Virus record (IMG/VR): IMGVR_UViG_3300020159_000639
Location: 1-39,220 of that record
DNA: 39,220 bases
Reading direction: 5' to 3' (one strand)
Origin: a virus
Below are positions 1,700 to 35,562 of the stretch, piece after piece. The notes below the pieces were generated by a model. It was given only the letters and a program-made list of their open reading frames with translations. It had not been told where the DNA came from and did not search any database. A program made the translations under genes and the position numbers. The first letter of the stretch is position 1, and every line of letters begins with the position of its first letter.

Positions 1700-1707
1700 G
1701 ATAAATA
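1700..1707 (+). promoter_or_regulatory. Late promoter box GATAAATA before tail tube gene
   Basis: Matches the T4-type late consensus NATAAATA. The box ends 23 nt before the tube start codon. With T4 geometry (last A at -6) transcription would start near 1713, giving an ~18-nt leader that contains the Shine-Dalgarno sequence CCGGAG. This is one of the few late genes here with a normal leader. Confidence 0.7.
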
Positions 1708-2374: not shown

Positions 2375-2403
2375 AAAGCCCGGTTTTATATCGGGCTTTT
2401 TTT
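2375..2403 (+). terminator. Rho-independent terminator after tail tube gene
   Basis: AAAGCCCG pairs with CGGGCTTT (8 bp) around a 9-nt A/T-rich loop, followed by an uninterrupted T run. It lies 18 nt after the tube stop codon and isolates the tube transcript from the next gene. Confidence 0.9.
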
Positions 2404-2406
2404 ATC

Positions 2407-2414
2407 ACTAAATA
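2407..2414 (+). promoter_or_regulatory. Late promoter box ACTAAATA, 5 nt before start codon
   Basis: One mismatch to NATAAATA. It directly follows the tube terminator and its final A is separated from the ATG at 2420 by exactly 5 nt (ATAGT). T4 geometry would put +1 on the A of ATG, giving a leaderless mRNA. No Shine-Dalgarno sequence is present. Confidence 0.65.
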
Positions 2415-2419
2415 ATAGT

Positions 2420-3514
2420 ATGGCAGACAAATTCACACGATTTTTATCAGGAGTAGGCCAAGGTCTACTCAACCCCAAAGGCAACTTAGGTGATGCTAGG
2501 CATGCGGCACGACTGTATGTTGATAATCAGTTTGCTCGAGCACCCAGAACAAAATTTTTATATCACGTGGCATTTGACATTGCTGAACCAGCATTACTGT
2601 CAAAAAAATTCAGTGACAAACGTAAAGAAGTAAGTTTGTTAGTAAAAGGTGCCGACCTTCCTAGAATTACTATTGACCACGATATTAAAAATCAATATAA
2701 TCGAAAACGAGTTATTTACAAAGAATTAAAATACGAACCACTTAACATTAGCTTTCATGATGACAATATTGGTATTGTAAATGCGTTATGGGCACAGTAT
2801 TTGAGTTACTATTCTCCTGAACGACTAAACCCACTTGAAGCATGGATGGACACAACATTAGGTCCGTATCAAGGCATGAATACGGGGCTCTCTAAATGGA
2901 AATATGGCCTAGATAGAACCAAGGGAACAACAGGTACAGATACAGCATATACAAAACCGTTTTTTAGATCAATTACTCTGTATACACTAAGTAGAAAAAA
3001 GTTCAACAGTTATACGCTAGTTAATCCACATATTGTCAGTTGGACCCACGGTAATCTTGATCAAAATTCAAACAACGGTACAGTTGAAGCTCAAATGAGT
3101 CTTGTATATGAATCTATTTTATACGGCACAGGATCAGTTATTAAAGGCAAAGAACCAACAGGGTTTGCTGATTTGTTCTATGATAAAACTCCTAGTCCGT
3201 TATCAATCGGTGGTGGAACGTTGACTAGCATATTTGGCCCAGGTGGCCTAATAACAGCCGGCAGTAGTATTATCGAAGATGCTCTAACAATTTATGGTAA
3301 GGGTAATGTACAAGAGCCTGGCATAGGACCGCTGGGATTAGGAACTATAATATCAGCAGCTAATTTTTATAAGAGTATTAGATCAATAACTCCAGAAAAT
3401 CTTATTGCCGAAGCTACAAATTTAATCACTAATCCAGGAGCAGCTTCAAATGCGGTTAGTGGTTTACAAGGTGTGTCGTTTGGCGCACAGCAGTCTTTTA
3501 GACCGTCACAGTAA
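2420..3514 (+). CDS. Tail-tube-like baseplate protein (gp48/gp54-type)
   Basis: 364 residues. The N-terminal ~250 residues (KFLYHVAFDIA, VKGADLPRITIDHDIKNQYN, YEPLNISFHDDN, then VSWTHGNLDQNSN and VEAQMSLVYESILYG) read like a tube-fold domain: beta strands, a central helix, and the N-x-K/R-x loop seen in gp19. The remaining ~110 residues are Gly/Ser/Ile-rich. In T4, gp48 (364 aa) and gp54 carry such domains and join tube to baseplate, so this is probably the tube cap or initiator; gp48 and gp54 cannot be told apart by eye. Start chosen at the first ATG after the late box, with no ribosome binding site. It lies between gp19 and gp4, unlike T4. Confidence 0.55.
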   Translation: MADKFTRFLSGVGQGLLNPKGNLGDARHAARLYVDNQFARAPRTKFLYHVAFDIAEPALLSKKFSDKRKEVSLLVKGADLPRITIDHDIKNQYNRKRVIYKELKYEPLNISFHDDNIGIVNALWAQYLSYYSPERLNPLEAWMDTTLGPYQGMNTGLSKWKYGLDRTKGTTGTDTAYTKPFFRSITLYTLSRKKFNSYTLVNPHIVSWTHGNLDQNSNNGTVEAQMSLVYESILYGTGSVIKGKEPTGFADLFYDKTPSPLSIGGGTLTSIFGPGGLITAGSSIIEDALTIYGKGNVQEPGIGPLGLGTIISAANFYKSIRSITPENLIAEATNLITNPGAASNAVSGLQGVSFGAQQSFRPSQ

Positions 3515-3521
3515 TTAATAT

Positions 3522-3902
3522 ATGAACAACACTCTATCTAATTTACCAACAAAACAGACCGCACCAGATAGTGCCGATAAGAGCAGAGTATATCTAAATA
3601 ACTTTGGGCAAGCTGGTGAAGAATATTCGGGCACCGACGTCGACGCCACTGTTGGATTTCTATCCAAGCGCGGATTTGGTCTTGAGGCTGCTACAGTTAC
3701 TTCTATGGTATTATTAAAGCAAGCTAAACAGGATAACATATCTGTGTTTAAGTTGTTAGATACTTTAGATACTTTACAAACCTTAGAGCTATCAGCTCTC
3801 GTTAGTGAAATATTAAATCAAAATAGATCCCAAACATCGAGATTAGGATTTAAGGTACCAGTATCTGCTAATCAGCAAAAGATAAGAAACATCAAAGCAT
3901 AA
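3522..3902 (+). CDS. Conserved virion-associated protein of unknown function
   Basis: 126 residues, not recognised by name. It resembles a small family I associate with aquatic T4-like phages: Leu-Pro-x-K start, then a segment VDATVGFLSKRGFGLEAATVTS, a helical stretch with repeated DTLDTLQTLELSALVSEILN, and an Asn/Arg-rich end (NQNRSQTSRLGFKVP). It starts 7 nt after the previous stop and its TAA overlaps the ATG of gp4 (TAATG), so it is translationally coupled to head and tail assembly genes. No membrane segment, cysteine cluster or enzymatic motif is visible. A neck or tail completion role is possible from context only. Confidence 0.6.
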   Translation: MNNTLSNLPTKQTAPDSADKSRVYLNNFGQAGEEYSGTDVDATVGFLSKRGFGLEAATVTSMVLLKQAKQDNISVFKLLDTLDTLQTLELSALVSEILNQNRSQTSRLGFKVPVSANQQKIRNIKA

Positions 3903-4342
3903 TGGCCAAGTTTGCTCAAGGGAGATTCACTATGAAGAATCCCGAAAAATACATTGGAAAGAAAATACCGTTGGCTCGAAGCAGTTGGGAATTTGTTTTT
4001 ATGCGAATGCTCGATGAACATGATGGTGTTGAAAAATGGGCCAGCGAAAGTATACAAATACCCTATAGAGATCCCTTAACAGGCAAGTATACAATATACG
4101 TTCCTGATTTCTTTATTGTCTACAACGATAAGTCTGGTAAAAAGCATGCCGAAGTTGTTGAAGTAAAACCCAGCAACCATACTTTTTTAGAAAAAGTAGG
4201 CAAGAGCCAATACAATCAACAGCAATATGTTAAAAATATGGCAAAGTGGGAAGCTGCTCAAGCATGGTGTAAACAACAGGGCATTAAGTTTAGAGTGGTA
4301 AATGAAGATGATATTTTCCACAAAGGCTCTAAGCGTAGATAA
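3902..4342 (+). CDS. 4: Head completion protein gp4 (TnsA/restriction-nuclease-like fold)
   Basis: 146 residues, close to T4 gp4 (150). Visible signatures: N-terminal ARSSWEFVFMRMLDEHDGVEKWASE, then PDFFIVY and EVVEVKP, and a C-terminal KWEAAQAWCKQQGIKFRVVNEDD. The E...PDF...E-x-K spacing is that of PD-(D/E)XK/TnsA-type nucleases. T4 gp4 acts at the packaged head before neck joining. ATG overlaps the previous stop. The next gene begins 8 nt later behind a late-type box. Identity is strong by motif order; nuclease activity is inferred. Confidence 0.87.
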   Translation: MAKFAQGRFTMKNPEKYIGKKIPLARSSWEFVFMRMLDEHDGVEKWASESIQIPYRDPLTGKYTIYVPDFFIVYNDKSGKKHAEVVEVKPSNHTFLEKVGKSQYNQQQYVKNMAKWEAAQAWCKQQGIKFRVVNEDDIFHKGSKRR

Positions 4343-4345
4343 GTA
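4338..4345 (+). promoter_or_regulatory. Late-promoter-like box GATAAGTA, 5 nt before gp16 start
   Basis: One mismatch to NATAAATA (G in place of an A). It overlaps the gp4 stop codon and ends exactly 5 nt before ATG 4351, the same spacing as five other late boxes in the window. There is no Shine-Dalgarno sequence between it and the ATG. Confidence 0.45.
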
Positions 4346-4350
4346 GATAT

Positions 4351-4833
4351 ATGACCAAAAAGTTAGAAGAACTGTTTAATTTAGAAGAGTCTACTACTGT
4401 AGAGCCAGCAATCCCTGTGATCGAAGAATCTAAAGAAGAAGTGCGTGACCTTGAAAGAAGTTACAGAGAAGTTGATACTATTGCTGGTCAATTGCCTGCT
4501 ATTGCTGACTTAGATTCTTTAGGTGAAAACGAACTAGACGCCCTTGCTAAAAAAGCAGAGGATGCCTATGACGATCTAATGGATTTAGGCATGAATGTTG
4601 AAGTACGCTATAGTGGTCGTATTTTTGAAGTAGCAGGCACAATGCTACGTAATGCTATCGATGCTAAGTCTGCTAAAATTGATAAAAAACTAAAGGCCAT
4701 CGACGCTAAACTTAAAAAGTTAAAAATAGACAGAGATGCCGGTGATGAAGATCCGAATAATATGCTAAACGGCCAGGCATTTGTAATTACGGATCGCAAT
4801 GAACTCTTGAAAAAACTGCAAGGAAAGGAATAA
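4351..4833 (+). CDS. 16: Terminase small subunit gp16
   Basis: 160 residues (T4 gp16 is 164). It has the gp16 layout: an acidic N-terminal tail (LEELFNLEE), a central helical hairpin starting at the DLERSYREVDTIAG segment and continuing with ALAKKAEDAYDDLMDLG and RIFEVAGTMLRNAIDAKSAK, then a Lys-rich coiled segment (KLKAIDAKLKKLKID) and a short C-terminal motif (NGQAFVITDRNELLKKL). The small subunit rings recognise concatemeric DNA and stimulate gp17. It lies between gp4 and gp17 in the late block. The assignment rests on length, helix pattern and neighbourhood. Confidence 0.72.
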   Translation: MTKKLEELFNLEESTTVEPAIPVIEESKEEVRDLERSYREVDTIAGQLPAIADLDSLGENELDALAKKAEDAYDDLMDLGMNVEVRYSGRIFEVAGTMLRNAIDAKSAKIDKKLKAIDAKLKKLKIDRDAGDEDPNNMLNGQAFVITDRNELLKKLQGKE

Positions 4834-4836
4834 ATA
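4829..4836 (+). promoter_or_regulatory. Late promoter box AATAAATA, 5 nt before start codon
   Basis: Exact NATAAATA match overlapping the gp16 stop codon and ending 5 nt before ATG 4842. An AAGGAAAGGAA tract upstream could serve as ribosome binding site on read-through mRNA, but it would be absent from an mRNA started at this box. The gene may therefore be translated in two modes. Confidence 0.65.
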
Positions 4837-4841
4837 CTGAT

Positions 4842-5405
4842 ATGAAAACATTTAAAGATTATCTTGCTGAAAGTAAAAAAACCTACGGTTTCCGTATTAA
4901 AGTTGCGGGTCCATTGCCTGAAGGATTTGAAGAAAAAGCCAAATCAAAGATGGGCAAATACGGGTGTGGTAAGTTTGAAAAAGTTGCTACTACACCTATT
5001 CAAAAAACCGCATTGGAATTTTTAGATCTTTCAAACATTGAAGTTACAGTATTTGAGTGCGAATGTGCTTATCCTGTAACACCACAACAAATTCAAATTG
5101 ATGTTCAAGAATCAACAGGAACACCAAATACTCACCTTCGTGTAAGAAACGTTAACGATCCGCTTGAGCAAGCATTACCAGTCGAAGCTCCAGACGGAAA
5201 GTCTATTTTAAATGACGGCGATTTAAAATCCGCTGAAAAAATCAAACACAAAGAATACTTTGGCAACGAGCATAATGCTTCTTTTATCAAAGAGCTTGCT
5301 AAGACTAGTAAAGAACGAGCCAAAGATAAGAATCAAGGCGAATACAAAATGCCTAAATCACCAAAACAAGACAAAGCCGGCACCAAGAGTGCCCTAGGGA
5401 GTTAA
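4842..5405 (+). CDS. Unknown late protein with capsid-targeting-like N-terminus
   Basis: 187 residues. The N-terminus MKTFKDYLAES closely resembles the T4 capsid-targeting peptide of the internal proteins (MKTYQEFIAEA in ipIII), which is cut by the gp21 head protease after the Glu. The middle (TYGFRIKVAGPLPEGF, then a beta-rich region through VFECECAYPVTP and TGTPNTHLRVRN) looks like a small folded domain. The last 60 residues are Lys/Asp-rich and probably disordered. Similar proteins occur next to terminase genes in aquatic T4-like phages as I remember them, without a known role. It has a late box with leaderless geometry. Possible core or internal head protein. Confidence 0.62.
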   Translation: MKTFKDYLAESKKTYGFRIKVAGPLPEGFEEKAKSKMGKYGCGKFEKVATTPIQKTALEFLDLSNIEVTVFECECAYPVTPQQIQIDVQESTGTPNTHLRVRNVNDPLEQALPVEAPDGKSILNDGDLKSAEKIKHKEYFGNEHNASFIKELAKTSKERAKDKNQGEYKMPKSPKQDKAGTKSALGS

Positions 5406-5406
5406 T

Positions 5407-5952
5407 ATGGATTTTAAAGCTATACTAGAAAAGATGGCCGAACTAGAAGCTAGTAAGGTATCAGAGGAGTGTGGCATGCCCATGACTCCATCAGCACCAA
5501 GCGCACCACCTGCTATGCCACCATCAATGAGCGTTAATCTAAATGCTCAGGGTTTGGACAACATTGAATCTTTAATGAAATTGATTAGCAAAGTCAATCC
5601 AGATTCTCTCGGCGGCAATGTAAAAGAACCAACATTACCAATGATGACCACTGAGCCATCAATGGCTTCGTTGAGAGATAAGGTAATGGCTGCTCCAGCA
5701 ATTGGTATTGCCGATGGCGACATTGATCCTACTGACAATGATATTGATCCAGAACAAGAAGCGTTTGGCAATACTCCAGACGGTGCTCCAGGACCAGAAA
5801 TTAAACCAATGAGTGCTGCTGTTCCTAATGGTGATGATCTACATCGTAAGAAGAAACAATATCCAGCAACACAGCCAGGCGACAATCCTATGGCAGTCGA
5901 AAGTATCAAAGCACAGTTAGAAGCATTGTTAGCTGAAATTAAATCTAAATAA
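5407..5952 (+). CDS. Unknown late protein, Pro/Met-rich and acidic
   Basis: 181 residues. A short helical N-terminus (MDFKAILEKMAELEASKVSE) is followed by a Pro/Ser/Ala/Met-rich linker, a helical motif SVNLNAQGLDNIESLMKLISK, a long low-complexity acidic stretch (IDPTDNDIDPEQEAFG) and a C-terminal helix (VESIKAQLEALLAEIKSK). The composition resembles scaffold or core proteins, but no family is recognised. ATG is preceded by AGGGAG at good spacing, one base after the previous stop, so it is co-transcribed with the preceding gene. A UUCG terminator follows directly. Confidence 0.6.
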   Translation: MDFKAILEKMAELEASKVSEECGMPMTPSAPSAPPAMPPSMSVNLNAQGLDNIESLMKLISKVNPDSLGGNVKEPTLPMMTTEPSMASLRDKVMAAPAIGIADGDIDPTDNDIDPEQEAFGNTPDGAPGPEIKPMSAAVPNGDDLHRKKKQYPATQPGDNPMAVESIKAQLEALLAEIKSK

Positions 5953-5966
5953 TAATCAAAACGCTC

Positions 5967-5994
5967 AAATAGGCTCTTCGGAGCCTATTTTTTT
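5967..5994 (+). terminator. Rho-independent terminator before terminase gene
   Basis: Perfect 10-bp stem (AAATAGGCTC / GAGCCTATTT) closed by a TTCG tetraloop and running into eight or more Ts. It ends 2 nt before the late box of gp17, so terminase is transcribed separately from the upstream late operon. Confidence 0.95.
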
Positions 5995-5995
5995 C

Positions 5996-6003
5996 AGTAA
6001 ATA
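5996..6003 (+). promoter_or_regulatory. Late promoter box AGTAAATA, 5 nt before gp17 start
   Basis: One mismatch to NATAAATA, sandwiched between the terminator and ATG 6009. The gap to ATG is 5 nt (ACAGT), and no ribosome binding site fits. Predicted leaderless late mRNA for the terminase. Confidence 0.6.
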
Positions 6004-6008
6004 ACAGT

Positions 6009-7595
6009 ATGGCAAAATCACTAGACGGTAATTTAATCAAGAAGGCTCATGCTCAAATCAAGTATACGCTTGAGGAAGTCAAGCACCTTGAAGCATGTAT
6101 GGATCCCGTAACTGGTCCTCTCTATTTTGCTAGAAACTTTGTAAAAATTCAGCACCCTGTACGTGGTAGTATTCCTTTTGATATGTATGATTATCAAGAA
6201 AAATTAATCGAAGCATATCACGGTAACAAACAATGTATCGCAATGTTACCTCGTCAGATGGGCAAGACAACCTGTGCCTGTGCTTACTTATTATGGTACA
6301 CTATGTTTGTGCCAGAAGCACAGGTGTTAATTGCTGCTCACAAATACGAAGGCGCTCAGGATATTATGAATCGTTATCGATTCGGCTATGAGAACTTGCC
6401 AGACTTTATTCGTGCTGGTGTGTATTCATACAATAGAAATACCATCGAGTATGACAACGGTGCTCGTATTCAAGCAGTGACAACGACAGAAAATACCGGT
6501 CGTGGTAAATCTCTTTCATTGATCTATTGCGATGAGTTTGCGTTTGTACAACCTCCAGAGAAAGCCAAAGAGTTTTGGACTGCGTTGTCACCAACACTGT
6601 CAACCGGTGGTAAGTGTATTATTACATCAACACCAAACTCGGACGAAGACCAGTTTGCGTTGATCTGGACTGAAGCCAATAAAAAGTTTGACGAACACGG
6701 CAACGAGCAACCACTGGGTCAGAACGGTTTCTATTCATATTTTGCTCATTGGTCAGAACATCCAGATCGCGATGACGCATGGGCAGCACAAGAAAGAAGT
6801 AAGATTGGCGAAGAACGTTTCCGCCGTGAATTTGATTGCGAATTCTTGATCTTTGATGAGACTTTAATTAATGCTGTTAAACTAGCAGAACTCAAGGGTG
6901 TTGAACCTACAATGACCATGGGTCAAACACGTTGGTACAAGGAAATTAATCCACAGGCAACATATCTAGTAGCATTAGATCCTTCATTGGGTACAGGTGG
7001 CGACTATGGTGCTATACAGGTATACGAAATGCCTAGTATGACACAGGTAGCAGAATGGCGACATAATTTAACGCCTATTCAAGCACAGGTCAAGCACATG
7101 CGAGAGATATTAAGATACATTGCTGAACGTGCTTCAGAATTAGGTGGAACTCCGCAGATTTATTATTCAGTGGAAAACAACACCCTGGGCGAAGCAGCAC
7201 TAATAACGATCAGCGACCTAGGTGAAGAAAACTTTGCAGGGCTATTCTTAAGTGAACCTATACGTAAAGGGCATGTACGTAAATTCCGCAAAGGATTTAA
7301 CACCACGCACCGTAGTAAAGTCACTGCTTGTAGTCAACTTAAGAACATGATAGAGCAACATAAGATGGTAATTAAGTCTAAACCCTTAATTTCCGAACTA
7401 AAAACATTCGTAGCACACGGTGTTGGTTTTGGTGCTAAAACAGGTGAGCATGACGATTTGGTGTCGTCAACTCTACTAGTTATACGCATGGCTAGTGTTC
7501 TGGCAGATTGGGATCCGCAGATATATGAAAAAATGACGGAACGATTAACCGAAGATCAAATGCCCATGCCAATATACATAACTTCAGTATTCTAA
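6009..7595 (+). CDS. 17: Terminase large subunit gp17
   Basis: DNA-packaging motor ATPase and nuclease. 528 residues (T4 gp17 is 610; marine relatives are often shorter). Walker A is LPRQMGKT near residue 81, Walker B is LIYCDEFAF near 175, and the coupling motif is IITSTPN near 207. The C-terminal nuclease shows VALDPSLGTGGDYGAIQV near 321, YYSVENNTLG near 386 and HDDLVSSTL near 482. Both domains are complete. It is isolated by an upstream terminator and starts at an ATG with no Shine-Dalgarno, 5 nt after a late box. Downstream, the next late gene has its own box. Confidence 0.96.
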   Translation: MAKSLDGNLIKKAHAQIKYTLEEVKHLEACMDPVTGPLYFARNFVKIQHPVRGSIPFDMYDYQEKLIEAYHGNKQCIAMLPRQMGKTTCACAYLLWYTMFVPEAQVLIAAHKYEGAQDIMNRYRFGYENLPDFIRAGVYSYNRNTIEYDNGARIQAVTTTENTGRGKSLSLIYCDEFAFVQPPEKAKEFWTALSPTLSTGGKCIITSTPNSDEDQFALIWTEANKKFDEHGNEQPLGQNGFYSYFAHWSEHPDRDDAWAAQERSKIGEERFRREFDCEFLIFDETLINAVKLAELKGVEPTMTMGQTRWYKEINPQATYLVALDPSLGTGGDYGAIQVYEMPSMTQVAEWRHNLTPIQAQVKHMREILRYIAERASELGGTPQIYYSVENNTLGEAALITISDLGEENFAGLFLSEPIRKGHVRKFRKGFNTTHRSKVTACSQLKNMIEQHKMVIKSKPLISELKTFVAHGVGFGAKTGEHDDLVSSTLLVIRMASVLADWDPQIYEKMTERLTEDQMPMPIYITSVF

Positions 7596-7603
7596 GATAA
7601 ATA
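7596..7603 (+). promoter_or_regulatory. Late promoter box GATAAATA, 5 nt before start codon
   Basis: Exact NATAAATA match at the gp17 stop codon. The last A is 5 nt (TAAAC) before ATG 7609, with no Shine-Dalgarno. Predicted leaderless late transcript for the 768-residue protein. Confidence 0.72.
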
Positions 7604-7608
7604 TAAAC

Positions 7609-9915
7609 ATGGAAGATAATATTAAAAGTGTTAGCACTGACCTATTCTACAAAGTTAGAAGTCGTTTTTCTGGCCTTAAATTAGGTACAGAAACTGGTGA
7701 AGTAACTATCAATCCCGAAGAAGCTGTATTCTTTGACTTTGACTACATGGAAGGACAAACTCCAGTTGGTCACGTAAGCATTAGTCTAGCAGAACCAGGA
7801 AACATGAAAGTTTACTACAGTACAGGAATCGCAGAAGATATGGATCCTGTACAAAAAGATACATGGTATGATTTTTTAAGAGGTCTTAGAGAATTTGCCA
7901 AACGTAGATTAATGAGCTTTGATACACGCGATATTACTAAAGACAATTTAGATCAAAGAGACTTTGGTTTCTTAAGTCAATATGCTACTACAACACCTGT
8001 TGGAGAGGGAATTATGAAAGAAGGAATAGGGATGTATGGTACTGCTAAAACCAGTTACCAAAAATTAGAAAATACTAGATTGATTATCAAACATAATCAA
8101 CAAGTAGATGAAACTAGCCCCGGTGCTAGAACTAGACATATCAATGCTATGTTTATTGAAAATGGCCAAGGCGAACGTTTTAAATATCCGTTTATCCATC
8201 TAGCAGGTGCTCGTGCTATGCAGAGACACGTTCAAGAAGGCGGTCTACCTTATGACGATATTGGCAAACACATTATCGGTATCAGTGAAAAAATTGCCCA
8301 TCTAAAGAATTTTGGAAACTATGTTGTACGCAACGATCTTATGAATTCTGAAACAAATGAAATTGTTGGTCGTGCTCACGAGACATTAGACAGTCTAAGA
8401 GAAACTATTAAAAAACTAGCTAAAAGATCACACTACGAACAATTTAAATCAGAGTTTCAGGCAGAAAATTTATCAGAAGTCCCTCAAGATTTTATCGAAG
8501 ACCTAACTAACAAATTCACAGTTAAGAATTTCAAAGAAGACATTAAGGGAGTATTTCCTATCATTTATAGCTTAATGCAGGCCAACGAAGAAATACATTA
8601 TGACGACATAGTCGCAATGACCCACTCGACTAACGAAGACGTTGAAATCGATTTAGAAACCACAGACGAATTCGTAGATCCATTTAGTAAATTTGAATCA
8701 TGGGCTATGAACCTAGGCGAAGACAATGCTATCACTAGTCAAGATGAAGAAGAAAAAGCATCCGCTGTTGAGAAGTTACAGACATTGGTAGGACAGCATT
8801 TCCCGGCAGGCATGGACGGCCAAAACGCTATTGAAAGTTTAAAAGGCATTATTGATGATCCAAGACTGGCTCAAGAAATTAAAGCTACTGCCAAAGAAGA
8901 TGCTGACACATGTGTACGTCCGTTAGTTTATCAATGGCTAGAAAACAATGCTCCAGACGTTGTAGGACAATTAGATTTTGGTGATATGGACATGTCTGCT
9001 CAAGAAGCAGTTCAAGAAGGGTTTGGATCTCTAGAAGAGGAAGTTGCACAAATTCTAAAGAAGTTTGACGAAGACATGATGGAAATTGGCGGGTACGGTG
9101 ATCCAGATCAAGCCAAGATTGTTGAACTATTAAAACAAGGCGACTGGGACGGTGCTACAGAAGTAGTATGGTATGCTTATGCTGATCAAGATGGTGGCGA
9201 ACTTCGTGATATGGACAACTATATCGAAGATATAGAAGATCAATTCAAAGACCTTGCTCAGGGCGGAGACGAGGACGAAGGCGGAGAAACCGATGACAGT
9301 TATGCTCTAGCATCAGCAGGCCACGGCTCAGACGAGGACTATGAAAGCATAGAAACTGAAGCAGACCGTGAAATGACAAACACTCCACGTGACAAGTTTA
9401 TTTCAAGAATGAGCCCTAGTGTGGATAATGATGCCTTGTTACAAAAAGTTGGAAAAGTAGTGAATAGTCCAGAATTTGACAGTGACACTATTTTAAAAAT
9501 TGTAGATGCCGGTTCCGCTATAACACATCCTGTTGGTCGTTATATTCAAAAGGAATTTGATGAATTACAATACGACCTAGGCAGACAATATGAAGATTAT
9601 CCAGAGAGAGTAGCTGAAAAACTACTATCAATGTTGATAGCTAGAACAAAGCAAGACGCAAGCGAAGGTGTTGAACCACAACAACAAATGAATATCAAAG
9701 AAGTAGCAGAATTTATGTTTAGTTGTTATGACAAGGAGTCTAGAACATTCCCTAGGGGTCCAGAAGGTGTTGTAACAATGGTAGGCAAAAAGTTTGGTGA
9801 ACAGGCAGAACATGTAGCTCGTCAATTTGTAGAAAGAATGGCACCACAACAAAATACACAGGTACCGCAGGTAAATGAACTAGCACGTATCAGGGAATTA
9901 TCAGGCTTACAGTAA
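7609..9915 (+). CDS. Large acidic late protein of unknown function
   Basis: 768 residues, not assignable to a named T4 protein. The N-terminal ~125 residues form a compact domain (YKVRSRFSGLKLGTETGEVT, then AVFFDFDYMEG, HVSISL, NMKVYYSTGIA and WYDFLRGLREFAKRRLMSFD). The centre is helical and strongly acidic with Asp/Glu/Gly runs near residues 545-585. The end (ELARIRELSGLQ) is a short basic-amphipathic tail that I recall ending several aquatic phage proteins. It has its own late box and is followed by a strong terminator, suggesting an abundant virion protein. Homologues in marine T4-like phages are, as far as I recall, uncharacterised. Confidence 0.72.
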   Translation: MEDNIKSVSTDLFYKVRSRFSGLKLGTETGEVTINPEEAVFFDFDYMEGQTPVGHVSISLAEPGNMKVYYSTGIAEDMDPVQKDTWYDFLRGLREFAKRRLMSFDTRDITKDNLDQRDFGFLSQYATTTPVGEGIMKEGIGMYGTAKTSYQKLENTRLIIKHNQQVDETSPGARTRHINAMFIENGQGERFKYPFIHLAGARAMQRHVQEGGLPYDDIGKHIIGISEKIAHLKNFGNYVVRNDLMNSETNEIVGRAHETLDSLRETIKKLAKRSHYEQFKSEFQAENLSEVPQDFIEDLTNKFTVKNFKEDIKGVFPIIYSLMQANEEIHYDDIVAMTHSTNEDVEIDLETTDEFVDPFSKFESWAMNLGEDNAITSQDEEEKASAVEKLQTLVGQHFPAGMDGQNAIESLKGIIDDPRLAQEIKATAKEDADTCVRPLVYQWLENNAPDVVGQLDFGDMDMSAQEAVQEGFGSLEEEVAQILKKFDEDMMEIGGYGDPDQAKIVELLKQGDWDGATEVVWYAYADQDGGELRDMDNYIEDIEDQFKDLAQGGDEDEGGETDDSYALASAGHGSDEDYESIETEADREMTNTPRDKFISRMSPSVDNDALLQKVGKVVNSPEFDSDTILKIVDAGSAITHPVGRYIQKEFDELQYDLGRQYEDYPERVAEKLLSMLIARTKQDASEGVEPQQQMNIKEVAEFMFSCYDKESRTFPRGPEGVVTMVGKKFGEQAEHVARQFVERMAPQQNTQVPQVNELARIRELSGLQ

Positions 9916-9936
9916 GCAGTTTTATCGTAAAGATTC

Positions 9937-9960
9937 GGACACTTCGGTGTCCTTTTCTTT
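9937..9960 (+). terminator. Rho-independent terminator closing the late block
   Basis: Perfect 6-bp stem GGACAC / GTGTCC with a TTCG tetraloop, followed by TTTTCTTTT. It lies 21 nt after the stop of the 768-residue gene and marks the boundary between late and early/middle regions. Confidence 0.92.
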
Positions 9961-9980
9961 TGGCTAAATCAAATGTAAAC

Positions 9981-10033
9981 TTGAATCTATGCATCGGCGT
10001 TATATATAGTATACAGACATATTTCTGTATAAT
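9981..10033 (+). promoter_or_regulatory. Probable sigma70 promoter region of exported-protein gene
   Basis: TTGAAT (9981-9986), 18 nt, TATAGT (10005-10010) forms one candidate promoter. A second -10-like TATAAT lies at 10028-10033. Between them is an 8-bp inverted repeat (TATACAGA at 10010-10017, TCTGTATA at 10024-10031) that would overlap either start site. The arrangement suggests a repressor or activator site, but the active -10 cannot be decided from sequence. Confidence 0.5.
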
Positions 10034-10053
10034 AACATAAAGGAAACTTTACA

Positions 10054-10269
10054 ATGAAATCAGCAATCGCAATCGTAGTAGCATCGTTGTTTGCAGTATC
10101 AGCATTTGCTCAGGCACCTGCTGCAAAGAAAGAAGAAGCCAAGCCAGCAGCACCTGCTGCTTCTGCACCTGTAAAAGCAGATGCCAAGAAGGATGAAAAG
10201 AAGCCTGTCAAAAGTGAACCTGCTAAGAAGGACGCACCTAAAGCAGACGCCAAGCCAGCCGCTAAGTAA
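10054..10269 (+). CDS. Small exported Ala/Lys/Pro-rich protein
   Basis: 71 residues. Clear Sec signal peptide: MKSAIAIVVASLFAVSAFAQ, with a Lys, a hydrophobic core and an AFA-Q cleavage site near residue 19. The mature part is a low-complexity Ala/Lys/Pro/Glu polypeptide (PAAKKEEAKPAAPAA style), very likely disordered and basic. It is preceded by AAAGGAAA 9 nt before the ATG. Similar small proteins are common in Betaproteobacteria, so it may have been picked up from a host; it would act in the periplasm. The function is unknown and homology is hard to establish because of composition. Confidence 0.75.
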   Translation: MKSAIAIVVASLFAVSAFAQAPAAKKEEAKPAAPAASAPVKADAKKDEKKPVKSEPAKKDAPKADAKPAAK

Positions 10270-10273
10270 TCGA

Positions 10274-10447
10274 CTGTTAGAAAACAACAACAGTCTCATC
10301 ATAGAAGATGAGATTGTTTTTGGGCGCAATCTCCAGTCGCGTAAATTTGGCGAGATAGTAGATGATGAGTTATCTGAATATGTGGTCTGGAGATTATGGC
10401 GAGCTAGGCAAATGGCGTTAGCGAAGTACAAGGAAAAGTGGGGTTGA
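10274..10447 (+). CDS. Small conserved-looking ORF without a standard start codon
   Basis: An open frame ending at 10447 encodes EDEIVFGRNLQSRKFGEI, then VDDELSEYVVWRLWRAR and QMALAKYKEKWG. This sequence is too protein-like to be chance, and I recall a similar short family (acidic start, DELS-YV-RL--AR, KYKEKW) in aquatic T4-like phages. No ATG, GTG or TTG precedes it in frame between the previous gene's reading frame and this segment. CTG at 10274, ATC at 10298, ATA at 10301 or ATT at 10313 are the only options. A stem-loop covers the likely start. It may use a rare start, a frameshift from the upstream gene, or be a decayed or mis-sequenced gene. Confidence 0.45.
   Translation: MLENNNSLIIEDEIVFGRNLQSRKFGEIVDDELSEYVVWRLWRARQMALAKYKEKWG
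10294..10321 (+). terminator. Possible terminator or leader hairpin
   Basis: 7-bp stem TCTCATC / GATGAGA with a 6-nt loop, followed by TTGTTTTT. It is 24 nt after the exported-protein stop, so it fits a terminator, yet it overlaps the start region of the following small frame. It could instead control that frame's translation. Confidence 0.6.
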
Positions 10448-10462
10448 CCCACTTTTTCTTTT
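10434..10462 (+). terminator. Rho-independent terminator upstream of gp32
   Basis: 9-bp stem AAAAGTGGG / CCCACTTTT with a 5-nt loop and a T-rich tail TCTTTTGG. The stem overlaps the last codons of the small frame ending at 10447. It separates it from the gp32 promoter region. Confidence 0.88.
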
Positions 10463-10496
10463 GGTAAAACAAAATCAAAAAACTATCAGATAATCA

Positions 10497-10525
10497 TTGA
10501 CCTTGATAAATAAAAAGCGCATAAT
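10497..10525 (+). promoter_or_regulatory. Sigma70-type promoter of gp32
   Basis: TTGACC (10497-10502), 17-nt spacer, CATAAT (10520-10525): one mismatch in each hexamer at ideal spacing. Predicted start near 10532 gives a ~50-nt leader that carries a 12-bp direct repeat and a strong Shine-Dalgarno. Confidence 0.7.
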
Positions 10526-10537
10526 AAAACATGTGCA

Positions 10538-10573
10538 TAAGGCATATTACATTTTAAGGCATATTATAGGAGG
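10538..10573 (+). repeat. Direct repeat in gp32 leader next to the ribosome binding site
   Basis: TAAGGCATATTA occurs at 10538-10549 and again, identically, at 10555-10566, a 17-nt period. TAGGAGG (10567-10573) follows immediately, 9 nt before the gp32 ATG. T4 gp32 represses its own translation by binding an A/U-rich leader next to the ribosome binding site, so this repeat is a candidate autoregulatory operator in the mRNA. Confidence 0.6.
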
Positions 10574-10582
10574 CAATTTAAA

Positions 10583-11548
10583 ATGGCTACACTAGCAGAA
10601 ATTCGAGCAAAACTTCAAGAATCGCAAGCAGGTCAAGGCGGCAAATCAAGCGGCGGTGACAACGCAATTTATCCCCACTGGAACATGGCAGAAGGCAAAG
10701 AAGCAACGATTCGTTTCTTACCTGATGGAGACCCTAACAACACTTTCTTCTGGATTGAACGAGCAATGATCAAATTGCCGTTTGCTGGAATCAAAGGTGA
10801 TACCTCAAGCAAGCCGGTTCAAGTACAAGTTCCATGTATGGAAATGTGGAATGAAACATGTCCAGTACTTTCTGAAGTTCGTGGTTGGTTCAAGGATAAG
10901 TCACTTGAAGACATGGGTCGTAAGTATTGGAAGAAGCGTTCATACCTTTTCCAAGGTTACATTGTAAAGAATCCCATCTCGGAAGACACAACTCCAGAAA
11001 ACCCAATCCGTAGATTTATCATTGGACCTCAGATCTATCAGATTATCAAATCTGCTTTAATGGATCCCGAGCTTAATGAGTTGCCAACAGATTTCAACCA
11101 CGGTGTTGATTTCCGTATTGCGAAAACATCCAAAGGTGGTTACGCAGACTATTCTACTTCAAAGTGGAGTCGTGTTGAACGTGCTCTAAGCGATGAAGAA
11201 CGCACAGCAGTTGAAACACATGGTCTTTTTAGTCTAAAAGATTTCCTTCCAAAGAAACCTACAGACGTAGAACTTAAAGTTATCAAAGAGATGTTTGAAG
11301 CATCTGTTGATGGCGAAGCCTACGATATGGAACGTTGGGGACAATACTTCAAACCAGCAGGTATGAGTCAAGCTACAGGTGATCCTGCCGCAAGACGTAC
11401 TGAAGCTGTTGTTGACGAAGACGAACCAGCGGCAGTAGCAGCCCCAGTAGTATCATCTGCTCCTAAAGCAGAAGAACCAGCGGCTGCTGGCAATAACAGC
11501 AGAGCACAAGACATCCTAGCGATGATCCGCTCACGTCAAGGCCAGTAA
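10583..11548 (+). CDS. 32: Single-stranded DNA-binding protein gp32
   Basis: Coats ssDNA in replication, recombination and repair. 321 residues (T4 gp32 is 301). The basic N-terminal cooperativity region includes ATLAEIRAKLQESQ. The OB-fold core contains IYPHWNMAEGKEATIRFLPDGD, the zinc-region CMEMWNETCPVLSEV and the very characteristic DMGRKYWKKRSYLFQGYIVKN. The C-terminus is Ala/Glu/Pro-rich and acidic before a final helix (AQDILAMIRSRQGQ), which in T4 recruits partner proteins. Strong Shine-Dalgarno TAGGAGG. It is followed by a hairpin and then uvsX, a recombination gene cluster. Confidence 0.95.
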   Translation: MATLAEIRAKLQESQAGQGGKSSGGDNAIYPHWNMAEGKEATIRFLPDGDPNNTFFWIERAMIKLPFAGIKGDTSSKPVQVQVPCMEMWNETCPVLSEVRGWFKDKSLEDMGRKYWKKRSYLFQGYIVKNPISEDTTPENPIRRFIIGPQIYQIIKSALMDPELNELPTDFNHGVDFRIAKTSKGGYADYSTSKWSRVERALSDEERTAVETHGLFSLKDFLPKKPTDVELKVIKEMFEASVDGEAYDMERWGQYFKPAGMSQATGDPAARRTEAVVDEDEPAAVAAPVVSSAPKAEEPAAAGNNSRAQDILAMIRSRQGQ

Positions 11549-11558
11549 AAACTAGCTT

Positions 11559-11582
11559 AGAGAGGTGCTCCGGCATCTCTCT
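11559..11582 (+). terminator. Hairpin between gp32 and uvsX, partial terminator
   Basis: 10-bp stem (AGAGAGGTGC / GCATCTCTCT, one G-U pair) with a TCCG tetraloop, followed by AATTTCATTT. The tail is a weak U run, so it may attenuate read-through from gp32 into uvsX or stabilise the gp32 message rather than terminate fully. Confidence 0.65.
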
Positions 11583-11609
11583 AATTTCATTTCTGTAAGG
11601 ACTATAATA

Positions 11610-12689
11610 ATGACAAAAGCATTTGATATATCAAAATTTAGAAAGTCTATTACTAAATCAATTGACGGTTTAAGTATTGGCTTTAATGACCCAACTGACT
11701 GGGTTAGTACAAACAACTACGCATTAAACTATCTTATCAGCGGCGACTTTAAACGTGGTATTCCGTTAGGTAAGGTTACAGTATTCGCAGGCGAATCTGG
11801 GGCAGGCAAGTCATTTATCTGTTCAGGCAACCTAGTTAAGAACGCACAAGCACAGGGCATTTTTCCAATCTTAATTGATACAGAAAACGCACTAGACGAA
11901 AAATGGTTACACGCACTTGATGTTGACACAAGTCCTGATAAGTTGTTAAAACTTAACATGGCTATGATTGACGATGTGGCAAAGACTATCACAGAATTTG
12001 TTGCAGAGTATAAACAAATGCCCGAAGATGAACGTCCAAAGGTATTGTTCATCATTGACTCTTTAGGTATGTTGTTAACACCTACAGACGTTAATCAGTT
12101 CCAAGCAGGTGACTTGAAAGGTGATATGGGCCGTAAACCTAAGGCACTAACAGCACTGGTTCGTAACTGTGTTAATATGTTTGGTTCATTAGGTATTGGT
12201 CTAGTAGCAACTAATCATACATACGCTTCACAAGATATGTTTGATCCAGATGACAAGATCAGTGGCGGTCAAGGCTTTATCTACGCTAGCTCTATTGTTG
12301 TTGCGATGCGTAAGTTAAAGTTAAAAACAGACGCAGATGGCAATAAGACTACAACTGTTAACGGTATTCGTGCTGCTTGTAAGATTATGAAAACTCGTTA
12401 CGCAAAGCCGTTCGAAAGTGTACAGGTTGAGATTCCTTATGAAACAGGTATGAGTCCATATAGTGGATTAGTCGACTTGTTCGAAGCCAAAGGCATGCTC
12501 AAGAAAGAAGGTAACAGCCTTGTCTACACCACCAAGGACGGTGAGATCATCAAGCAGTTCCGCAAGGCATGGGAACGCAATGAGAAAGATGGCTTAACGA
12601 TTGTAATGGAAGATATTTCAAAACATGGCGAAATCACCGCTTCAGAGATAACTAATAATGTTGAACCTGAAACGGAGACCCAAGAATGA
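11610..12689 (+). CDS. uvsX: UvsX, RecA-like recombinase
   Basis: Strand-exchange recombinase for recombination-dependent replication. 359 residues from ATG 11610 (MTKAFDISKFRKSITKSIDG), preferred over an upstream in-frame GTG because TAAGGA precedes it. Walker A is GESGAGKS near residue 67; Walker B is VLFIIDSLGML near 145; the L1/L2 region includes GLVATNHTYASQDMFDPDDKIS (written here in two motifs, GLVATNHTY and DPDDKISGGQG). A RecA-type core and an acidic tail (NVEPETETQE) are present. The last 4 nt overlap the next ATG. Confidence 0.95.
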   Translation: MTKAFDISKFRKSITKSIDGLSIGFNDPTDWVSTNNYALNYLISGDFKRGIPLGKVTVFAGESGAGKSFICSGNLVKNAQAQGIFPILIDTENALDEKWLHALDVDTSPDKLLKLNMAMIDDVAKTITEFVAEYKQMPEDERPKVLFIIDSLGMLLTPTDVNQFQAGDLKGDMGRKPKALTALVRNCVNMFGSLGIGLVATNHTYASQDMFDPDDKISGGQGFIYASSIVVAMRKLKLKTDADGNKTTTVNGIRAACKIMKTRYAKPFESVQVEIPYETGMSPYSGLVDLFEAKGMLKKEGNSLVYTTKDGEIIKQFRKAWERNEKDGLTIVMEDISKHGEITASEITNNVEPETETQE

Positions 12690-12925
12690 AAGAAGATTTA
12701 ATTGCCGACCTGTGGAACGTAACTAGCGAGCATATTCCAGAGAAACAAAAGAAAGACGTAGCATTTGATTTTATTAATGTCTTACTGGATTACGGCATCA
12801 AAGAAACAGTGCTGAGTAATATGCTAGGTATAGATCCATTTTTAGACGAAGCTATCGAGTATGCGTTAGACGCTGAAGATGAAGTAGAATACGAAGATAA
12901 TGATTACTCAGAGGATGACGAGTGA
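12686..12925 (+). CDS. Small acidic protein between uvsX and uvsY
   Basis: 79 residues. An N-terminal helical domain (DLIADLWNVTSEHIPEKQKK, then DVAFDFINVLLDYGI) is followed by a strongly acidic tail of Asp/Glu/Tyr. It overlaps uvsX by 4 nt and uvsY by 4 nt, so it is translationally coupled to both. I recall similar small acidic proteins at this position in T4-like phages of aquatic bacteria. A regulatory or DNA-mimic role in recombination is possible, but nothing in the sequence proves it. Confidence 0.75.
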   Translation: MKEDLIADLWNVTSEHIPEKQKKDVAFDFINVLLDYGIKETVLSNMLGIDPFLDEAIEYALDAEDEVEYEDNDYSEDDE

Positions 12926-13377
12926 ATTGGTACGACAAGGTTAGTAAAGATATTTCAAACATTCCCGATGCTGCTGTTTTTTACGAAAGTGAACTTCAAG
13001 AAGCAAAGATTGAATGTAAAATATTTGGTAACATTGAAAAAGTATCCGCATCAATGCCTGGTATTGTAGAGAATCGTTTTAACCAACTTCAAGAGATTGA
13101 AGCGATTCTTGAGTACCTTAACATTGAACTACGTCGACTTAAGAGTCAGCATTTTCGTAAGTATTTAGAAAACTATCAACGAGCTTTATCATCTAGAGAC
13201 TGTGAAAAGTTTGTAGATGGCGAAGCTGACGTTGTAGACTTTGAAAAAATTATTAACGAATTTGCGTTACTTAGAAATAAATGGTTAGGTGTTATTAAAG
13301 CACTAGACCAAAAACAATGGCAACTTACAAATATTGTAAAATTACGTGTTGCTGGATTGGATGATGCTAGTCTATGA
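12922..13377 (+). CDS. uvsY: UvsY recombination mediator
   Basis: Loads UvsX on gp32-coated ssDNA. 151 residues (T4 UvsY is 137). The start is GTG at 12922, overlapping the previous TGA as GTGA. Recognised by NWYDKVSKDISNIPDAA, SMPGIVENRFNQLQEIEAIL, LNIELRRLKSQHFRKYLENY, ALSSRDCEKFVDGE and the end FALLRNKWLGVIKALDQKQW, NIVKLRVAGLDDASL, all hallmarks of the cyanophage-type UvsY. It is mostly helical, as expected for the hexameric mediator. It is the last gene of the recombination operon before sugar genes begin, with another 4-nt overlap. Confidence 0.92.
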   Translation: MNWYDKVSKDISNIPDAAVFYESELQEAKIECKIFGNIEKVSASMPGIVENRFNQLQEIEAILEYLNIELRRLKSQHFRKYLENYQRALSSRDCEKFVDGEADVVDFEKIINEFALLRNKWLGVIKALDQKQWQLTNIVKLRVAGLDDASL

Positions 13378-14351
13378 ACATTTTAGTTACAGGTGGATTG
13401 GGACTGATTGGTCACAATATTGTTAAAAAATTAACAGAGCAAGGACATGCTGTAATTGTCTATGACAATATGACCAATTACGGTATTATTCCGCAAGCTG
13501 AATTAGATTATCTGTTAGATGAAAGATTCAAACTAATAGGCGACGTGCCGGTTTTTAACAATGACATTGTTGACGAAAGCATGTTTGATTGGTTGTTGCC
13601 TAACTACAATATTGAAGCAATTATTCATCTTGCTAGTTTTCCTAGACAGAAAGTAGTCAATGCTGATCCAGTTTGGGGCAGTAATGTGATGAGTACTGGA
13701 CTGTTGGTATTGTTAGAAAAAGCCGTACAACACGGTGTAAAACGATTTACCTATGCTAGTTCCAGTATGGTCTACGGCGATTTTAAAGATTATGTAACAG
13801 AAGATGCTGTGTGCCGTCCACAAGGGCAATATGGTATTCTAAAACTAGCCGGAGAATGGCTGGTCAAAGACTACACTCGTAAACACGGTATCGAACATAC
13901 TATTCTAAGACCTAGTGCTGTCTATGGACCACTTGATGTAGAAGATCGTGTGATTTCAAAGTTCTTGCTTACAGCTATGCGAGGAGAAACTCTCAAAGTC
14001 AACGGCGGCAGTGAGACTCTAGACTTCACTTATGTTGATGATGCTGCCAATGGCTTTGTAGATGCTACGCTATCGCCGGCTGCTGCCAATGGCACATACA
14101 ATATAACAAAAAGCCACAGCAAAACTCTGTTATCAGCCGCTGAATTGGCTGTAAAGCTAGTGGGCAAAGGCAACATCGAAGTAAAAGAAAAAGACGCAGA
14201 CTTTCCTAGTCGCGGAGCATTAGACATTACTCGAGCACGTAGAGATTTTAATTTTAATCCCAAAATAGATATAGACGAAGGTTTTGAAATCTATTATAAT
14301 TGGCTGTTAACGTCAGAATACTGGCAAGCCAATCTAAATCAACCACGATAA
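13374..14351 (+). CDS. NAD-dependent sugar epimerase/dehydratase (extended SDR)
   Basis: 325 residues. The Rossmann motif GGLGLIG at residues 7-13 binds NAD(P). A VYDNMTNYG segment follows, then IIHLASFPRQ, the Ser in YASSSMVYG and the catalytic YGILK (YxxxK), and RPSAVYGP and FTYVDDAANGF further on. This order is that of UDP-glucose 4-epimerase/dTDP-glucose dehydratase relatives. The substrate is a nucleotide sugar, identity unknown. ATG overlaps the uvsY stop, so it is transcribed with the recombination operon, while the rest of the sugar island behind it gains a late promoter. Probably feeds the glycosyltransferases downstream. Confidence 0.88.
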   Translation: MNILVTGGLGLIGHNIVKKLTEQGHAVIVYDNMTNYGIIPQAELDYLLDERFKLIGDVPVFNNDIVDESMFDWLLPNYNIEAIIHLASFPRQKVVNADPVWGSNVMSTGLLVLLEKAVQHGVKRFTYASSSMVYGDFKDYVTEDAVCRPQGQYGILKLAGEWLVKDYTRKHGIEHTILRPSAVYGPLDVEDRVISKFLLTAMRGETLKVNGGSETLDFTYVDDAANGFVDATLSPAAANGTYNITKSHSKTLLSAAELAVKLVGKGNIEVKEKDADFPSRGALDITRARRDFNFNPKIDIDEGFEIYYNWLLTSEYWQANLNQPR

Positions 14352-14359
14352 AACCAGTA

Positions 14360-14367
14360 TATAAATA
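14360..14367 (+). promoter_or_regulatory. Late promoter box TATAAATA, 5 nt before start codon
   Basis: Perfect T4 late consensus. It ends exactly 5 nt (TCACT) before ATG 14373, with no Shine-Dalgarno, giving a predicted leaderless late mRNA that would cover the plus-strand sugar genes to 18866. Confidence 0.78.
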
Positions 14368-14372
14368 TCACT

Positions 14373-15134
14373 ATGAAAACAATCGTAGTGGTAACTGGTG
14401 GATTCGATCCCCTTCATTCTGGGCATATTGCCTATTTTAAAGCAGCCAAACAATTAGGCGATATTTTAATCGTAGGCGTTAATAGCGATGCCTGGCTCAT
14501 ACGCAAAAAGGGTTCTCCTTTTATGCCTTCTACAGAACGTATCAATATTGTAGAACACCTCAGCATGGTTGACGGAGTTATTTTATTCAATGATGACGAC
14601 GGCAGTGCTAAAGAAGCAATTAAGAACGTTCGCCAACTATATCCCAACGATAAAATAGTATTTGCCAACGGCGGTGATAGAACGCATATCAATATTCCAG
14701 AAATGGATGTTAAGGACGATAATTTAACATTTGCGTTTGGTGTTGGAGGATTTGATAAAGCAAATTCTAGTTCGTGGATTTTACAAGAATGGAAAGCACC
14801 TAAGACAGAACGTCCTTGGGGGTACTATCGTGTGTTACATGAAGTTCCTGGCATGAAAGTTAAAGAGCTTACAGTGAATCCCGGACAAAGTTTAAGCATG
14901 CAAAAGCATCGGCATAGGGCAGAGTACTGGATTGTCAGTAGCGGCCAAGCAGTTGTTAACAGCATGATGCCCGGCGGTTATTCGTTACCATCAACACTGT
15001 TGTTAACACACGAACAATTTAAAGTACCTGTCGGCGAGTGGCACCAACTAACTAATCCGCATAGTGAACCTGTAAAAATAGTAGAAATACAATATGGTGA
15101 AAAATGTGAAGAAGAGGATATAGAAAGAAAATGA
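14373..15134 (+). CDS. Cytidylyltransferase fused to a phosphomannose-isomerase-type cupin
   Basis: 253 residues, two domains. Residues 1-130 are a nucleotidyltransferase of the CTP-transferase/HldE family: GGFDPLHSGH (HxGH at 15-18), ILIVGVNSDAW, PSTERINIVEHLSMVDGVI and VFANGGDRT. Residues ~147-245 are a cupin like the C-terminus of type II mannose-6-phosphate isomerase/ManC: ERPWGYYRVL, VKELTVNPGQSLSMQKHRHR, AEYWIVSSGQAVV and VPVGEWHQLTNP, with the His/Glu metal ligands present. It probably activates a sugar or alditol phosphate as a CDP derivative while isomerising its precursor. It starts an operon with 4-nt overlaps. Confidence 0.85.
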   Translation: MKTIVVVTGGFDPLHSGHIAYFKAAKQLGDILIVGVNSDAWLIRKKGSPFMPSTERINIVEHLSMVDGVILFNDDDGSAKEAIKNVRQLYPNDKIVFANGGDRTHINIPEMDVKDDNLTFAFGVGGFDKANSSSWILQEWKAPKTERPWGYYRVLHEVPGMKVKELTVNPGQSLSMQKHRHRAEYWIVSSGQAVVNSMMPGGYSLPSTLLLTHEQFKVPVGEWHQLTNPHSEPVKIVEIQYGEKCEEEDIERK

Positions 15135-30489: not shown

Positions 30490-30574
30490 GCTATGGCGTA
30501 AATTTAGAGATTGGTTAAAGTATCGTAAGAGAATTAAAGAATTACGTAAACGGGATCCATTTATATACAAATGA
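30482..30574 (+). CDS. 30-residue basic microprotein between gp61 and carbamoyltransferase
   Basis: Too short to be picked up by usual length cut-offs. ATG 30482 overlaps the end of gp61; the stop overlaps the next ATG as ATGA. Sequence MFKLWRKFRDWLKYRKR, then IKELRKRDPFIYK: an amphipathic, strongly basic Trp/Arg/Lys helix and a conserved-looking RDPFIYK end. I recall short phage proteins with this ending. It could bind nucleic acid or membranes, or serve translational coupling. Confidence 0.7.
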   Translation: MFKLWRKFRDWLKYRKRIKELRKRDPFIYK

Positions 30575-32971: not shown

Positions 32972-33197
32972 AGCTGTAGAGTTGTTGAAGTGGCTTCCCG
33001 AAGAACACGAAGTAATTGAAATAGATTGGCCTAAGGTACACAAAAGCATAGGCTTGGCACAGACACAATGGCTGCTTACGCAACACAGAGCAGACTGTCA
33101 AATTGTCCTAGAACGCAAGGACCGTTACTGCCGTTTAATCGCAGAATTCTACAACGAGCACACACTATTGAATTACCGCCTACAGTGGGCTAAATAA
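32961..33197 (+). CDS. Small conserved-looking protein downstream of gp41
   Basis: 78 residues from ATG 32961, inside the end of gp41. Sequence features: KNKAVELLKWLPEEHEVIEID, WPKVHKSIGLAQTQWLLTQH, RLIAEFYNEHTLLNYRLQW. Helical, with several Trp/His. Not recognised. Position suggests it is co-transcribed with the helicase. A late-type box lies at its end for the following gene. Confidence 0.6.
   Translation: MKNKAVELLKWLPEEHEVIEIDWPKVHKSIGLAQTQWLLTQHRADCQIVLERKDRYCRLIAEFYNEHTLLNYRLQWAK
33189..33196 (+). promoter_or_regulatory. Possible late box GCTAAATA before 33201 gene
   Basis: One mismatch to NATAAATA, overlapping the previous stop (CTAAAT), and separated from ATG 33201 by 4 nt (ATTC), one less than the other boxes. 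Supports late expression of the two following genes. Confidence 0.4.
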
Positions 33198-34725: not shown

Positions 34726-34747
34726 AGGCCCACGATCAGCCCTAATA

Positions 34748-35554: not shown

Positions 35555-35562
35555 AGTGTGTT

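Follow-up and report, generated by a model that had tools for sequence, protein, structure and literature searches.

Late promoter boxes at a fixed distance from ATG predict leaderless late mRNAs in T4-like jumbo phages and Pelagibacter phages

Leaderless mRNAs of phages are usually treated as exceptions. We analyzed a 39,220-nucleotide (nt) IMG/VR fragment of a jumbo T4-like phage (IMGVR_UViG_3300020159_000639, hereafter the window), in which a T4-type late promoter box lies 4 or 5 nt before the ATG of seven genes, and found that this close placement in the window and its relatives is real and far stronger than one window could show. In two separate lineages, late promoter and start codon have apparently been merged into one element, and this concerns dozens of gene families, with terminase and virion genes among them. 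Very probably these are T4-type gp55 late promoters fused to AUG that would give rise to leaderless late mRNAs, and many virion genes of the freshwater jumbo clade to which the window belongs, and of Pelagibacter phages, probably yield mRNAs without a leader or a ribosome-binding site. This reading rests on what the sequences hold, namely, a fixed gap between box and ATG, a pyrimidine at position -1, lack of a Shine-Dalgarno (SD) sequence, exclusivity of AUG, conservation among orthologues, a layout that leaves several genes no space for a leader, and the presence in relatives of a gp55-type gene.

Close boxes in the window

A preliminary description of the window, made from its sequence alone, had placed six boxes exactly 5 nt before an ATG, and all six spacings proved correct on rechecking; a seventh case, at 33201 and with a gap (k, the number of nt between box and ATG) of 4, was absent from it (Table 1). 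The core common to the close boxes is TAAATA (TAAGTA at 4351), and the assignment of box type NATAAATA to the six genes therefore holds as far as a TAAATA-type core is concerned, whereas strict NATAAATA occurs at only three of them. Strict ATAAATA is not overrepresented in the window (9 observed versus 14 expected); it is the position of the box, not its abundance, that is unusual. In the window, 11 starts have TAAATA at most 45 nt upstream, and in 5 of them k is exactly 5 (p = 2e-6 under a model of uniform offsets). As a raw pattern, TAAATA-N5-ATG occurs 5 times; 500 dinucleotide shuffles gave 0.95 occurrences on average and never more than 5. Upstream of the box, as far as -23 of the ATG, no conserved sequence was found.

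The gap is kept in orthologues, which we counted as distinct orthologous upstream regions. It is 5 nt in 24/25 orthologues of 2420 (4 nt in the other), 4 to 5 nt in 36/36 of 4351, 5 nt in 28/28 of 4842 (and in 68/68 of a protein-family set), 4 to 6 nt in 22/26 of 6009, 5 nt in 28/33 and 4 nt in 2/33 of 7609, and 5 nt in 15/18 of 14373. For the six genes together, a gap of 4 to 6 nt is thus kept in 156 of 166 upstream regions. An SD is found in none of the 2420 and 4351 orthologues, nearly all those of 6009 are without one, and those of 7609 and 14373 lack it as well. The 33201 box lies at k = 4 in all three distinct orthologous upstream regions of that gene. The earlier statement that the spacer bases differ each time and the distance is what is kept was right about the distance; of the bases, the last is nearly always a pyrimidine.

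Leadered genes of the same operon

The same operon provides an internal control. Use of the same box with a leader, previously noted at 1731, 29008, and 34291, was borne out, with k = 23 (SD ccggag), k = 22, and k = 27 (SD agggg), respectively. Orthologues of 1731 have an SD in 26/26 cases and a box at k = 4 to 8 in none; those of 5407 have an SD in 31/31 cases, and those of the gp32 gene at 10583 have AGGAGG in 18/18, in both instances with no promoter box at k = 4 to 8. Box and SD are both missing at gene 3902, which seems to be coupled to its upstream neighbor. A late-specific translation mode, as had been suggested for the close-box genes, was not established: the neighboring late genes 1731 and 5407 keep their SD in orthologues, and leaderless translation would therefore be one of two late modes.

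Spacing in related genomes

The scan of box-to-ATG distances in relatives against background that had been proposed as a check gave a sharp peak at k = 5, unlike background, in strong support of a promoter placed on the AUG. The relatives are IMG/VR sequences, which are not independent samples within the clade. Distinct TAAATA sites in 80 relatives and the window are followed by ATG at k = 5 in 142 of 476 cases, compared with about 8 at other offsets. When whole genomes were scanned for all 6-mers over offsets from 3 to 40 nt relative to each ATG, TAAATA at k = 5 was among the strongest ATG-linked 6-mers in relatives G001 to G003, level with SD 6-mers; observed and expected counts were 14 and 2.4 in G001, 20 and 4.1 in G002, 16 and 2.3 in G003 (where it was the top hit), and 10 and about 2 in G004. 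The same scan found no such peak in T4, PA5oct, or Phosso. With an open reading frame (ORF) required, G001, G002, G003, and G004 have 25, 35, 21, and 16 starts at k = 4 to 6 (p = 3e-16 to 4e-9 for the excess), and such starts number 1 in T4, 0 in Syn9, 1 in 121Q, 2 in PA5oct, 2 in Phosso, and 3 in Atu_ph07 (400 of 490 kb scanned). The 10 raw TAAATA-N5-ATG sites of T4 were considered as gene starts and rejected as unconvincing: only two open a frame of at least 80 codons, and for both the frame is already open well upstream of the ATG (for 255 and 92 codons).

Box-to-ATG distances are bimodal, with one class at 4 to 6 nt that lacks an SD and another at 16 to 45 nt that often has one. Could the exact 5 nt be a coincidence of short intergenic space in a compact genome, or a product of shared ancestry? 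The window alone holds few cases and orthologues do share ancestry, but genes with a box at k = 3 to 7 fall into 67 protein families, the close peak is single and sharp with k = 12 to 15 nearly empty, six other T4-like genomes, some of them likewise from jumbo phages, lack the placement, and p values down to 3e-16 in one genome exclude chance. We regard this explanation as extremely improbable.

Separately, a virion structural gene (phrog_11591; L203:2172-3386, minus strand, and orthologues) keeps another fixed gap: in 14 members the box stands exactly 7 nt from the start, with the spacer tatgact in 12 of these, and -1 is again T.

Predicted transcription start and start codon

In a review, the T4 late consensus box is numbered from T(-13), that is, from -13 to -6 (PMC2988020). 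With a 5-nt gap, a box at -13 to -6 would therefore put +1 on the A of the ATG, and the earlier use of T4 geometry to the same end agrees with this numbering. The last spacer base (-1) is a pyrimidine at 59 of 60 sites, compared with 49% at other starts (p = 1.6e-17), the other spacer bases being free. The gap and the -1 pyrimidine are both in keeping with a box about one helical turn upstream of +1. A pyrimidine at -1 and a purine at +1 are the usual bacterial preference at transcription starts. The pyrimidine-purine step at leadered promoters was also tried as independent proof of +1 (0.32 to 0.36 versus about 0.25 in relatives; 0.43 at the expected step in T4, with 23 sites) and was not decisive.

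Start codons at k = 4 to 6 comprise 97 AUG and 2 non-AUG codons, compared with 164 and 52 at k = 16 to 45, a class that includes chance GTG/TTG frames (Fisher p = 9e-8). A raw excess of GTG at k = 5 (12 versus 5.6), considered as a sign of non-AUG leaderless starts, vanished when ORFs were required (2 cases). Leaderless initiation in Escherichia coli and Caulobacter has a strong preference for AUG over GUG and UUG (PMC9031893), and the near-exclusive use of AUG at close boxes fits leaderless initiation.

Terminators and opposed promoters

Intrinsic terminators stand directly upstream of the 2420 and TerL promoters (Table 1); the segment 2330-2419 folds at -17.8 kcal/mol, and almost all of the 80 relatives have the same TerL order of hairpin, T-run, box, and ATG. 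As the terminator abuts the TerL box, only the box and the gap lie between terminator and ATG. Overall, 12.6% of close boxes have the end of a terminator immediately before them, compared with 0.6% of box-less starts. In opposed promoter pairs, such as gp2/gp4 of the cultured Pelagibacter phage HTVC008M, 26 to 43 nt separate the two start codons. Taken together, the abutting terminators and opposed pairs leave no room for leaders at several genes. TerL homologues without a close box (L053 type) have an SD at the same ATG, and the TerL gene of L088 has its box farther upstream, plus an SD, which supports both the start codon and a trade-off between box and SD. Near-palindromic divergent promoters of 39 nt, each box 4 nt from its ATG, were seen at G001 252942-252980 and G003 25853-25891.

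These arrangements also bear on the idea that the AT-rich motif is not a promoter but a translation signal, such as an A/U-rich start context or a standby site, within longer mRNAs. Some bacteria are known to have AU-rich start contexts, and the absence of an SD at close-box genes would suit such a role; nonetheless, we consider it very unlikely, since terminators end just upstream of some boxes, the same box also occurs at 16 to 45 nt with an SD, the motif is identical to the -10 box of T4 late promoters, and the -1 pyrimidine is a transcription-start signature.

Late sigma and translation factors

A late sigma factor related to T4 gp55 (phrog_12791) is encoded in 8 of 10 large relatives (E <= 1e-78) and also in PA5oct and Phosso. 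Phage-encoded bS21 was found in G001 (292290-292445), G002 (33352-33510), PA5oct (170985), Phosso (389762), and HTVC008M, and IF3 was found in Phosso only. A late translation program can be imagined in which the late sigma factor makes AUG-starting mRNAs and infection shifts initiation, through phage bS21, initiation factor ratios, or other factors, to favor leaderless viral over host SD mRNAs, the whole having arisen at least twice in aquatic T4-like phages; we think this distinctly doubtful. As an explanation of the placement, phage translation factors were set aside as not specific, with bS21 present also in PA5oct and Phosso, which both lack the placement, and IF3 confined to Phosso. Nor was bS21 informative about the host of the freshwater clade, its one weak match being a Bacillales metagenome-assembled genome at 41%.

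Expression of the close-box genes

The mechanism that we infer is one in which a gp55-like sigma factor would recognize the T4-type late box and transcription would start on the A of the start codon, which would leave no leader or one of a single nt at most; the 4- to 6-nt gap equals the T4 box-to-+1 interval. The promoter would thereby also set the start codon: the mRNA would begin with 5'-AUG, an SD would not be needed, and ribosomes would initiate on the 5' AUG as on a leaderless mRNA. The same box placed 16 to 45 nt upstream, often with an SD, would serve other late genes. AUG-starting late mRNAs, originally suggested for terminase and a large structural candidate, are a prediction supported by the spacing scan, the -1 pyrimidine, the AUG preference, the terminators, and the opposed pairs.

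Several observations weigh against this mechanism. An SD-like AAGGA immediately precedes the box in half of the orthologues of 4842, and the 4351 and 4842 boxes overlap the upstream stop codon, such that read-through transcripts and translational coupling could also express these genes. Some genes have a gap of 4 nt, and in these +1 may be the base before the A; at leadered promoters of the same genomes the pyrimidine-purine step near the predicted +1 is weak. The late sigma gene is placed outside the window, although the fragment itself was not searched for phrog_12791.

The overlaps raise a mixed mode, in which the boxes do act as promoters, yet polycistronic late mRNAs yield most of the protein via translational coupling and leaderless transcripts are a minor booster. 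Terminators precede 2420 and 6009, 14373 starts 21 nt past the stop codon before it, and the genes of divergent pairs lack an upstream gene on their own strand, so that the gap is kept where coupling is impossible. We therefore find a mixed mode rather unlikely, even though 4351 and 4842 start only 8 nt past the preceding stop codon and the operon includes 3902, a gene with no box or SD that seems coupled. The expression that promoters fused to AUG would provide may, at 4351 and 4842, be supplemented by coupling from read-through mRNAs.

Gene content of the window

The window has a T4-like gene order, as judged from protein family matches (Table 1), and its late genes are followed by gp32 (10583), UvsX, UvsY, sugar genes, a UvsW-type helicase, a primase, and the replicative helicase. 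Large relatives reach 364 kb; the nearest isolates by TerL (~53% identity) are Pseudomonas phage PA5oct and Sinorhizobium phage Phosso. The product of 14373, which had been listed among the close-box late genes, is a cytidylyltransferase/cupin enzyme and not a virion protein. Together with a sugar-nucleotide epimerase and a NodU-type carbamoyltransferase, it belongs to a set of sugar genes (13374-18866 and 30571-31506) that suggests glycan modification, with 14373 as the member that has a predicted leaderless late promoter. Between the late and replication genes, 10054-10269 encodes a Lys/Ala/Pro-rich protein of 71 amino acids (aa) with a signal-peptide-like start, its own upstream region and SD, and no family match. 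Many short reverse-strand ORFs occupy 34731-39220, after the late and replication genes.

Table 1. Boxes, terminators, and genes of the window (bp, base pairs)
Feature	Position	Strand	Remarks
Tail sheath gp18	16-1668
Late box GATAAATA, internal control	1700..1707	+	k = 23 to tail tube 1731, with SD ccggag
Tail tube gp19	start 1731
Intrinsic terminator	2375..2399	+	10-bp stem, T tail; directly upstream of 2420 promoter
Late box ACTAAATA	2407..2414	+	spacer atagt; k = 5 to ATG 2420
Tail-tube-like protein (second tube-like), predicted leaderless	2420..3514	+	phrog_13438 / phrog_4542
gp4 head closure	start 3902
Late box variant GATAAGTA	4338..4345	+	spacer gatat; k = 5 to ATG 4351; overlaps gene 3902 stop codon
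Small-terminase-like protein (gp16 position), predicted leaderless	4351..4833	+	phrog_445, E = 3e-6
Late box AATAAATA	4829..4836	+	spacer ctgat; k = 5 to ATG 4842; overlaps upstream stop codon
Virion structural protein, predicted leaderless	4842..5405	+	phrog_14802, E = 2e-6
Intrinsic terminator	5967..5990	+	UUCG loop, T7 tail; directly upstream of TerL promoter
Late box AGTAAATA	5996..6003	+	spacer acagt; k = 5 to ATG 6009 (TerL)
Terminase large subunit (gp17, TerL), predicted leaderless	6009..7595	+	phrog_36964, E = 1e-120
Late box GATAAATA	7596..7603	+	spacer taaac; k = 5 to ATG 7609
Large virion structural protein, predicted leaderless	7609..9915	+	phrog_13484, E = 7e-17
Late box TATAAATA (T4 consensus)	14360..14367	+	spacer tcact; k = 5 to ATG 14373
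Cytidylyltransferase + mannose-6-P isomerase-type cupin enzyme, predicted leaderless	14373..15134	+	PF01467, PF01050
Late box GCTAAATA	33189..33196	+	spacer attc; k = 4 to ATG 33201
114-aa protein, no assigned function, predicted leaderless	33201..33545	+

Comparison with known systems

The pelagimyophages HTVC008M and Mosig, and the Methylophilales phage Melnitz, resemble the window clade in having the box at 5 nt with a pyrimidine at -1, whereas they differ from the freshwater jumbo clade in their TerL lineage and smaller genomes. In HTVC008M the excess is strong, with 13 close boxes (k = 5 in 12 cases); those in its first 100 kb match deposited gene starts, among them tape measure, gp2 (18916, minus strand), gp4 (18943, plus strand), gp48 (19456, plus strand), baseplate, and tail-completion genes. 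The excess is moderate in Mosig (6 close boxes, p = 5e-4) and not significant alone in Melnitz (3 close boxes, p = 0.06); gp2 has a close box in all three. In the TerL tree, the freshwater jumbo clade stands apart from the pelagimyophages, forcing at least two state changes, with several forks unresolved and T4 and 121Q on long branches. Near-start boxes of HTVC008M (L219-L226) often extend to TAAATAGT, unlike those of the freshwater clade, with ATG at 5 nt in 9 of 27 TAAATAGT sites, and this is possibly a lineage-specific extended late promoter. Late-promoter prediction failed in a survey of pelagimyophages (PMC7029224), a failure that promoters fused to start codons could explain. The prediction for the cultured Pelagibacter phages is exact and testable: 5' ends should fall on the A of AUG. 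For uncultured phages the close box offers a rule for locating start codons.

With the gp55/gp33/gp45-dependent late promoters of T4 (TATAAATA at -13 to -6), the window clade shares the core, the predicted box-to-+1 interval, the context of late and replication genes, and, in relatives, a gp55-type sigma factor; in T4 itself the box is mostly 12 to 45 nt from the ATG, often with an SD, and only one start lies at k = 4 to 6. The late promoters of the cyanomyoviruses S-PM2 and Syn9 have the same motif, NATAAATA, as the window clade (PMC2984593), but nearly all boxes of Syn9 are at least 15 nt before ATGs and none lies at k = 4 to 6. In the literature that we searched, leaderless T4-type late transcripts are not described; a paper on AR9 presents phage transcripts as often leaderless, yet the untranslated regions of AR9 itself are 26 to 491 nt long.

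The leaderless mRNAs of bacteria and temperate phages, such as lambda cI and those of mycobacteria and Deinococcus, have a 5'-terminal AUG without an SD, as predicted here, and their promoters are of the housekeeping or repressor kind. One question that the window clade raises is how the ribosomes of the host deal with large amounts of viral mRNA lacking a leader. Here, unlike in those systems, a phage late-sigma promoter would serve many lytic virion genes and other late genes.

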